This document shows, in pieces, positions 11,055 to 13,345 of a stretch of DNA of 57,071 nucleotides. The notes below the pieces were generated by a model. That model was not told the origin of the DNA. It saw only the letters and a list, made by a program, of their open reading frames with translations, and did no database searches. The first letter of the stretch is position 1. Each line of letters starts with the position of its first letter. A program made the position numbers and the translations under genes. Origin of the DNA: Bacillota bacterium (GTDB lineage Bacteria; Bacillota; Limnochordia; DTU087); assembly GCA_012519025.1 (NCBI GenBank), contig JAAYQZ010000060.1, forward strand, positions 1-57,071, written 5' to 3'.

Positions 11055-11103
11055 TGACCAACATTAGTGACTCTTCCCATTGTTGATGAGGAGTGGTAAG
11101 TCG

Positions 11104-12414
11104 GTGGGTGATCACAAAAAACGGACTTTCAAGGCTTTCCTGATGTTGATGATGCTTTGTTTAGGTATGTTCTTATGTGCAGCGGTGTTGAATGTACCGG
11201 TGCATATGCGTCTTTTCACTGGGCAGGAAAGATCCTTGCAGGTGCTGCCTCTTTTTACTGTTAGGGAGCCTAAAGGAGATGTGGGGCTGTTGGTTCCCAC
11301 GGAGAAAGGTTTGACACTCAAACCAATAAATTTGGGCAAGGTGGACTTAGAACTGCGGTTTTTAGATGTAATCCCTCTGAAGCAAATGGTTGTAGACGTT
11401 GTGCCGAAACTGTACGTCCGTCCCGGAGGACAGGCCATAGGTGTGCTTTTAAGTGCCCATGGACTGATTGTCAGCCGCATTTTACCGGTCATTGATGTTA
11501 ATGGAATCGAATGCCACCCTGCAAGGGATGCCGGTATACAGCCTGGGGATGTTCTGGAAATGGTTGCAGGACAACCTATCCGTAATGTTGCCCAGGTCGC
11601 TGCCTTAGTTGATTCACTGGGCAGGGCACAAAAGAATGTCACAATAACCATCAAAAGGGGGCCAAACCGCTTTCAAGTACAGTTAAATCCTGTGCTGGCA
11701 CAGGCCAATGCTAATGAACAGGGACCCAGGTATATGCTGGGTATTATTTTGGAAGAACCCACGGCCGGTGTGGGAACGCTGACATTTCATCACGGTGCAT
11801 CGGGGAAGTACGGGGCATTGGGCCACATTATTACAACAAGTCTCACAGGATCACTGCCCATAGAAGATGGCCGCATCGTCCGGGCCCAAATAAGTGAGGT
11901 CTTCAAGGGTTCTCGAGGCAATCCCGGGGAGAAGAAAGGAGTCTTCCGCAGCGAAAAAGACACCATCGGTACTATCGAGAAAAATACGAAGTTCGGCGTA
12001 TTCGGAAAACTGTCAGCCCCTTTACCGCCCTCTTTTTGGGATGATGAGGTACCCGTAGCATTGGCAAGCGAGGTTAAAGTCGGTCCTGCTGAAATCCTCA
12101 CAGTACTCGATGGTGAGCATGTGCAGGCTTTTCAAGTTGAGATCATCAAAGTTACATCGCAAAGCAAACCCGATGATAAAGGGATCGTACTTAGAGTTGT
12201 TGATGAACGCCTGTTGGCACGCACCGGTGGGATTATTCAGGGCATGAGCGGCAGCCCTATTTTACAAAACGGCTCATTGGTAGGGGCAGTCACCCATGTA
12301 TTTGTGAATGATCCTGAGCGCGGTTTTGGTATCTTCTCAGAATGGATGCTCCAGGAAGCAGGATTGTGGGATGAAGCAAGAAGCAGAAGTGATCTATCCC
12401 TGAAGGCAGCCTAA
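11104..12414 (+). CDS. spoIVB: SpoIVB serine peptidase (sporulation signalling)
   Basis: Forespore-secreted S55-family peptidase that triggers sigma-K activation in the mother cell. It has an N-terminal membrane anchor (about residues 10-28), a PDZ domain around residues 110-195 (with AGIQPGDVLEMVAGQPIRNVAQ), and the peptidase domain with the catalytic His in ALGHIITT (about residue 241) and Ser in QGMSGSPIL (about residue 384). About 436 residues with the GTG at 11104, chosen for GAGGAG about 10 bases upstream; TTG/ATG at 11080-11086 are alternatives. SpoIVB-Spo0A adjacency is classical in spore formers. I could not find a clean sigma-G promoter. Confidence 0.96.
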   Translation: MGDHKKRTFKAFLMLMMLCLGMFLCAAVLNVPVHMRLFTGQERSLQVLPLFTVREPKGDVGLLVPTEKGLTLKPINLGKVDLELRFLDVIPLKQMVVDVVPKLYVRPGGQAIGVLLSAHGLIVSRILPVIDVNGIECHPARDAGIQPGDVLEMVAGQPIRNVAQVAALVDSLGRAQKNVTITIKRGPNRFQVQLNPVLAQANANEQGPRYMLGIILEEPTAGVGTLTFHHGASGKYGALGHIITTSLTGSLPIEDGRIVRAQISEVFKGSRGNPGEKKGVFRSEKDTIGTIEKNTKFGVFGKLSAPLPPSFWDDEVPVALASEVKVGPAEILTVLDGEHVQAFQVEIIKVTSQSKPDDKGIVLRVVDERLLARTGGIIQGMSGSPILQNGSLVGAVTHVFVNDPERGFGIFSEWMLQEAGLWDEARSRSDLSLKAA

Positions 12415-12442
12415 GTCTTGGAATCCATAGGGGGAAGATAGG

Positions 12443-12468
12443 AGGAAGCCTGTCGATCAACGGCGAAT
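12443..12468 (+). promoter_or_regulatory. Possible sigma-H promoter with 0A-box-like site before spo0A
   Basis: AGGAAGC (12443-12449) and GGCGAAT (12462-12468) fit the AGGA/GAAT pattern of sigma-H promoters with 12 bases between them. TGTCGAT (12451-12457), one base off the core of a Spo0A box, lies between them. Bacillus spo0A has a similar arrangement. Short motifs, so only suggestive. Confidence 0.4.
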
Positions 12469-12514
12469 AAAAAAGCACAGGTAGAGAACAACCGGCACAT
12501 TTGGGGTGATAACC

Positions 12515-13345
12515 TTGACAACAACGGTTAAAAACGTGCTCATCGCGGACGGCAATCGCCGGTTTTGCGGGTGGCTTCAGCAAAAAATCGAAGCTCAGCC
12601 AAACCTGGCCTATCTTGGGAGCGTGCACGATGGTCGCACGGCTCTTTTGGAAATGGAACGTCTAGAGCCTGATTTGGTAATATTAGGTCTGATATTGCCC
12701 CATTTAGACGGGTTTGCCGTTATGGAAGAAGCCCGGGAAAAAGGAATTAAAACAAAGTTTTTGTTAGTGACAGCCTTTAATGGAGAAGAATTCCCAAAAC
12801 AAGCCGTTCGACATGGTGCTGATGGTTTTGTAATTAAACCTTTTCAGTGGGCCGTTTTCATTGAGCAAATAGAAGCTTTATTGGATACAGAGTCTTTGTC
12901 TAAAACCGGAGAAAAGGGCAAAACGGCGGCTGAAACCGATGATATGGATGATTTGATCAGGTTAGCCTTGGACGATGCGGCAGTCGAAAGCCTGATTGGA
13001 GATCGCATTACCGAGCTTGGCATACCGGCCCATTACAAAGGATATCGCTATCTAAAAGATGCTATTGCCATGGTTGTTTATGATGTTGAGCTGCTGGGAT
13101 TGGTGACTAAGGTACTGTACCCCACTATTGCCAACACTCACCAATCTACTGCTGCAAAAGTGGAGCGTTCTATGCGCTATGCGATTGAAGCCGCCTGGTC
13201 CAGAGGAGATGTTGATGTGCTGCATAAAGCCTTTGGATATTCCGTTGATCCTGAACGGGGTAGGCCCAGCAATTCTTCTTTTGTTGCCAAAATCGCCGAT
13301 GAAATTCGACTGCAGCTGCGCGCGGAAGGGATGCCATTGATTTAG
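12515..13345 (+). CDS. spo0A: Spo0A, sporulation master regulator with non-canonical receiver
   Basis: Response regulator that initiates sporulation. The C-terminal DNA-binding domain is fully conserved (PAHYKGYRYLKDAI, VTKVLYPTIA, VERSMRYAIEAAWSRG). The receiver domain is unusual. The acidic pocket reads ADGN instead of ADDN (Gly13), and the phosphoacceptor block reads VILGLILPHLDG instead of VLDIIMPHLDG, so Gly58 (codon GGT at 12686) replaces the Asp that is phosphorylated (Asp56 in Bacillus). The Thr (VTAF) and Lys (VIKPF) of the pocket remain. TTG at 12515 is chosen because GGGGTG lies six bases upstream. 276 residues, no frameshift. The protein is clearly Spo0A by its output domain, but classic phosphorelay activation looks impossible; activity may be set by dimerisation, level or another protein. 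Confidence 0.95.
   Translation: MTTTVKNVLIADGNRRFCGWLQQKIEAQPNLAYLGSVHDGRTALLEMERLEPDLVILGLILPHLDGFAVMEEAREKGIKTKFLLVTAFNGEEFPKQAVRHGADGFVIKPFQWAVFIEQIEALLDTESLSKTGEKGKTAAETDDMDDLIRLALDDAAVESLIGDRITELGIPAHYKGYRYLKDAIAMVVYDVELLGLVTKVLYPTIANTHQSTAAKVERSMRYAIEAAWSRGDVDVLHKAFGYSVDPERGRPSNSSFVAKIADEIRLQLRAEGMPLI

Follow-up and report, generated by a model that had tools for sequence, protein, structure and literature searches.

A spoIVB-linked Spo0A lacking the phosphoacceptor aspartate, accompanied by a second Spo0A that retains it, in Limnochordia

The spo0A locus and its product

The window, that is, the whole stretch of 57,071 nucleotides that was analysed, carries recN, spoIVB and spo0A in this order, read directly in its sequence and the same as in Bacillus. 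The gene spoIVB, marker of the canonical spo0A locus, is placed at 11080..12414 (+) and matched TIGR02860 with 393 bits. It is followed by an ORF at 12506-13345 (+) that codes, in an unbroken frame, for a full-length Spo0A of 279 aa, with TTG at 12515, preceded by GGGGTG, as the probable start. The gene (12515..13345, +), designated here spo0A paralog B, combines a degenerate receiver with a Spo0A_C domain and scored 244.5 bits against TIGR02875 (cut-off 200), 57.4 bits against PF00072 and 122.5 bits against PF08769. No new two-component partner gene was found beside it among the surrounding ORFs.

The receiver domain (12536..12871, +; PF00072) has an intact predicted fold, with a mean pLDDT of about 95-98 across most of the domain in the AF2 model and a TM score of 0.92 (normalised by the 1qmp chain) against phospho-Spo0A 1qmp. 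The first acid of the pocket, equivalent to D10 of Bacillus subtilis, is kept (GAC 12548), as are the conserved Thr (12770..12772, +, codon ACA) and the conserved Lys (12836..12838, +, codon AAA). Gly occupies both the second acidic-pair position, the metal ligand D11 (12551..12553, +, codon GGC), and the phosphoacceptor position D56 (12686..12688, +, codon GGT). The initial annotation had described a Spo0A without Asp56 and Asp11 and otherwise intact, and both codons and the TIGR02875 score agree with that description. On its sequence, paralog B is a Spo0A by descent, without the canonical phospho-activated form, and it is a pseudo-receiver by definition, a receiver-family (PF00072) domain without catalytic residues that phosphotransfer requires, in this case the acceptor and the second pocket acid.

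The Spo0A_C DNA-binding domain (13001..13306, +; PF08769, E=2.9e-36) matched 1lq1/1fc3 in sequence and fold. Its recognition helix, VERSMRYAIE (13160..13189, +), keeps the equivalents of E213 and R214, and H218 is replaced by Tyr (TAT 13178). With 58/113 residues (51%) identical to the B. subtilis effector and His218 changed, "fully conserved", as the domain had been called, is too strong. The B. subtilis Spo0A reference used for comparison is identical to PDB 9phz_E / 1lq1_A wherever those chains cover it.

A second Spo0A in the same genome

A search of the window genome for Spo0A_C returned two genes, paralog B and a second one, paralog A, on contig C127. Paralog A is located at 1179-2066, inside the housekeeping cluster rsmB-A-rlmN-FHA-FHA-PP2C phosphatase-ftsW/rodA-PBP. 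Its score against TIGR02875 (290.6 bits) is above that of paralog B, and both exceed the cut-off, so that annotation by Spo0A matches alone conceals two distinct regulators. The pocket residues are D10-N11-D56-T-K, and the recognition helix reads GGVEAAIRNA in place of SRVERAIRHA, equivalent to R214A and H218N. The reading of paralog B as a lone Spo0A was therefore not upheld; the other Spo0A keeps D56, T and K and has Asn at D11 and an altered helix. With Asn at the metal-binding acid, paralog A would formally count as a pseudo-receiver too, and its own phosphorylation is not assured.

Spo0A_C genes were counted in 61 genomes. Exactly two copies were present in 55 of them; of the other six, two have three copies, three have a single copy and the last has none. 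Both Spo0As are present in nearly all related Limnochordia genomes, and named matches place the two-Spo0A group in Limnochordia, some relatives being labelled Hydrogenispora; paralog A thus occurs in Limnochordia, Hydrogenispora and others. The context of the loci differs, paralog A lying between rsmB and rlmN and paralog B adjoining spoIVB, as in 37/51 Limnochordia loci and 29/34 other B loci. The literature searched contained no mention of Limnochordia with two Spo0As.

Several additional observations concern single genomes or lineages. In G025 and G028 (L061, L063) three Spo0A_C genes each were detected, the third being a long-branch A-like copy. In other lineages (L218, L219, L242, L243, L245, L176) an A-type Spo0A has a Glu-Asn acidic pair and the helix VEAAIRYTIQKTWKQG, and the spoIVB-linked Spo0A of these lineages stays canonical. 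The genome G026 (3,817,036 bp), probably that of Limnochorda pilosa, possesses both Spo0As with the acceptor of B intact; L. pilosa has been named among the species having lost sporulation genes (PMC7924749).

Order and recurrence of the residue losses

All of the ten further family members that were compared, each a different species, have Asp at D56. At D11, two of them share the Gly, namely G001, which belongs to the same genus, and G003; the others have Asp. As D11G is common to relatives and D56G is private to the window genome, the metal-binding acid was lost first and the acceptor second, a sequential order instead of the two independent losses initially proposed. The accompanying expectation that close relatives would not all carry Asp held at D11 and failed at D56 within the family; in the wider class, D56 is lost elsewhere in Limnochordia too.

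A pure sequencing error is unlikely because D11G recurs in separate assemblies, those of G001 and G003, so that the broken pocket is unlikely to be an artefact; this argument does not reach the private D56G. An assembly consensus error at D56 alone, the true protein having Asp56 and only D11 being lost, would fit a change found in the window genome alone, one A-to-G transition off an Asp codon and called from the assembly. With the pocket already broken in separate assemblies and D56 lost elsewhere in the class, such an error is extremely unlikely.

Among the sequences of the tree set, paralog A keeps D56 and Lys in 60/60, and D11 is non-acidic in 59/60, mostly Asn. In Limnochordia paralog B, D56 is lost in 11/51 (E, G, Q, L, A) and the acidic D11 in 25/50; outside Limnochordia, D56 of B is lost in 1/35. 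The available text of a review gives about 2.0% of PF00072 receivers without Asp (PMC12632262), and against this background the 11/51 of paralog B gave a Fisher p = 6e-9, for sequences that are phylogenetically correlated. Fisher tests ignore relatedness and the safer figure is the count of independent changes on the tree, where the D56 state changed at least seven times, every time in B. A lone Spo0A among the genomes with D56 loss was seen only in G048, a fragmented MAG. The canonical Spo0A copy is becoming a pseudo-receiver in the class and is already one in the window species.

An extremely diverged spoIVB-linked Spo0A, L047 (G014:C9), has lost D56 and K, and its acidic pair is degenerate.

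The retained fold, T, K and aromatic K-3 residue would be consistent with a B receiver switched by a different signal, through ligand binding, association with a partner or a modification other than phosphorylation, and such pseudo-receiver mechanisms are known (PMC12632262). Neither a conserved new pocket nor a partner gene was identified, and the replacement of D56 by different residues in different lineages disfavours one common new ligand; this explanation is very unlikely.

Selection on the two paralogs

In the same-genus pair, the tree distance is 0.15 for paralog A vs 0.78 for paralog B, mainly on the window branch, the terminal branch of window B being 0.60 vs 0.18 in its sister. Omega values were estimated in the pairs G000-G001 (G000 being the window genome) and G008-G009, and ranged from 0.15 to 0.17 for the B receiver, from 0.03 to 0.05 for the B effector and from 0.03 to 0.05 for the A receiver. 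The dS is saturated in most pairs and near saturation in G000-G001, for which the values are rough. The pair G008-G009, with a dS of about 0.5, showed an equal contrast between receiver and effector although its B site is intact, which indicates that relaxation came before the loss. The B receiver is under relaxed but still purifying selection, and the B effector is constrained.

These values bear on the fate of paralog B. The long window branch, H218Y and the very degenerate B of G014 would agree with a decaying and dispensable protein, paralog A having taken over the entire Spo0A role, including the 0A boxes. Such a takeover is unlikely, with a low probability, given that the ORF is intact, the sigma-H-type promoter is conserved and B persists, though fast-evolving, in most genomes of the class; a pseudogene or neutral decay is ruled out by the intact 279-aa ORF, an effector omega of about 0.05, a receiver omega of about 0.17 and the kept promoter.

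The sporulation genes spoIVB, spoIIE, spoIIAB and spoIIGA are present, in agreement with the initial annotation of an organism that retains such genes. Its suggestion of a Spo0A working without phosphorylation is plausible for paralog B because the acceptor and the pocket acid are gone, ORF and effector are under purifying selection and the sporulation genes are kept; it does not extend to the organism as a whole, where another Spo0A exists.

By identity to B. subtilis, the receiver is closer in paralog A (51%) than in paralog B (35%) and the effector is closer in B (51%) than in A (45%). Judged by these identities, the input half is better preserved in paralog A and the output half in paralog B.

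Promoters and 0A boxes

A sigma-H-type promoter, GGAGGAAGCCTGTCGATCAACGGCGAAT, is located upstream of paralog B at 12441..12468 (+), with a chance value of 0.06 for this sequence alone. The pattern was defined as RNAGGA followed by GAAW 21-22 bases further, and it is found at a conserved place before A and before B in 10/12 family genomes each, for 0.2 expected (B: 0.23). In G000 and G001 the promoter of paralog A has the -35 part and a weaker -10. The sigma-H label rests on the known consensus of B. subtilis.

Upstream of paralog A, a CCAATnnTT-like stretch is conserved in the family some 30-45 bases before the sigma-H -35 and could be a binding site of A itself. Four relatives have a perfect TGTCGAA ahead of paralog A, which was rejected as a 0A box because it falls on the sigma-H -10 position.

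The element TTCGACATGGACAA precedes spoIIE in the family, the window genome included. The spoIIE promoter has TTCGACATGGACAACC right before a TATAAT, and the first seven bases are the inverted canonical 0A box, exact in 9/13 genomes, again including the window genome, for 0.54 expected; in one of these nine, G014, the box is not at the usual place. Elsewhere in the genome the long spoIIE element showed no further exact match, and matches with 2 mismatches did not exceed those of the reversed control. No excess of 0A boxes was detected at spoIIA and spoIIGA, none being exact at spoIIGA and none consistent at spoIIA.

Since the canonical box persists before spoIIE and paralog B holds the canonical helix, with E213/R214 kept but H218Y in the window protein, the reading of 0A boxes would be assigned to B. 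A protein that has lost the acceptor and kept its DNA-binding domain could also be a phosphorylation-blind occupant of these boxes that holds them without activating, setting a threshold for A to overcome. An antagonist of this kind has little probability, as B corresponds in its genomic position to the activator Spo0A, and the different helix of A makes competition for one box doubtful.

Signalling proteins and a division of Spo0A functions

The window genome has eight receiver matches and two HisKA kinases. Candidates for the Spo0F, Spo0B and orphan kinases that the initial annotation had suggested looking for were found. The orphan MASE3-HisKA kinase (C86 11194-12723, -), a candidate sporulation kinase, is present in 11/11 family genomes with 36-51% identity. 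A Spo0B-type protein (L220/L241; C122 33695-33832, -), membrane-anchored, with a HATPase domain and not adjoining obg, is a candidate phosphotransferase. On C50 (L075 3472-3894, -) an orphan receiver consisting of a single domain, encoded between a hydrolase gene and tsaE, is a Spo0F candidate. These three proteins would be enough for a putative phosphorelay.

Our preferred interpretation, with a probability of about 0.5, is that input and output of Spo0A are divided between two proteins, paralog A taking the phosphorelay signal and paralog B being a phosphorylation-independent reader of 0A boxes dosed by its amount. The phosphorelay of orphan MASE3 kinase, Spo0B-like protein and single receiver would phosphorylate A; A~P, possibly, and sigma-H would drive the expression of B. 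Not activatable by acyl-phosphate, B would be able to act on 0A boxes as soon as it is synthesised, and its control would lie in the amount transcribed. A review of pseudo-receivers recognises regulators that are governed by how strongly they are expressed, as one possible design (PMC12632262). In favour of this division are the presence of two or three Spo0A_C genes in 57 of the 61 genomes, the retention of D56 in A and its loss in B, the receiver and effector identities to B. subtilis, the changed helix of A and E213/R214 kept in B, the relaxed B receiver vs the constrained effector, the folded receiver, the sigma-H-type promoters on both genes, the spoIIE 0A box and the orphan kinase. Against it are the Asn at the metal-binding acid of A, H218Y in window B, the saturation of dS in most pairs and the lack of an exact 0A box at spoIIGA or of a consistent one at spoIIA.

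The main rival is an A:B heterodimer, in which A~P would supply the activated receiver and the B receiver would only dimerise, B reading the 0A boxes and its own site being dispensable. The coexistence of A and B in nearly all Limnochordia, the sigma-H-type promoters on both, a B receiver predicted to be folded and under purifying selection, and the precedent of BldM-WhiI in Streptomyces (PMC4125116) are consistent with it; the receivers of A and B, however, are only 36% identical, the Asn at the metal-binding acid of A weighs on this arrangement too, and we consider it unlikely.

On a broader and tentative reading, which we would place somewhat short of even odds, Limnochordia and some neighbouring lineages might possess an ancient obligate Spo0A pair, formed by a phosphorylation sensor with new DNA specificity and a phosphorylation-blind 0A-box activator, acting as a cascade or as a heterodimer. 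If true, 'Spo0A~P' is not a single molecule in these organisms.

Comparison with known systems

Phosphorylation of Spo0A is the textbook decision point for endospore formation. The recurrent loss of the acceptor in the canonical Spo0A, beside a Spo0A that keeps it, makes the dividing of a one-protein switch into input and output testable. Window B resembles the Spo0A of B. subtilis and Clostridia in its domain architecture, in an effector with 51% identity and in the 0A box at spoIIE, and differs in having Gly at D11 and D56, a receiver with 35% identity and a second Spo0A in the same genome. Within that genome, the two paralogs are alike in belonging to the Spo0A family; A is set apart from window B by its Asp56, by Asn at D11, by R214A/H218N and by the rsmB-A-rlmN locus.

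The effectors of BldM and WhiI of Streptomyces are of the NarL type. These proteins are likewise two developmental response regulators with atypical receivers and possible pairing (PMC4125116), whereas both paralogs of the window genome are of the Spo0A family and their pairing is putative, known from co-occurrence and similar promoters. ChxR, HP1043, BldM, WhiI and RamR (PMC12632262, PMC4395418) share with window B a receiver fold without a phosphorylatable pocket joined to a DNA-binding domain. The term 'Spo0A' is absent from the available text of the pseudo-receiver review (PMC12632262), and no Spo0A is among the examples given in the available text of these sources. Compared with those examples, the window system is distinguished by an acceptor-bearing paralog and by a loss that recurs within one class.
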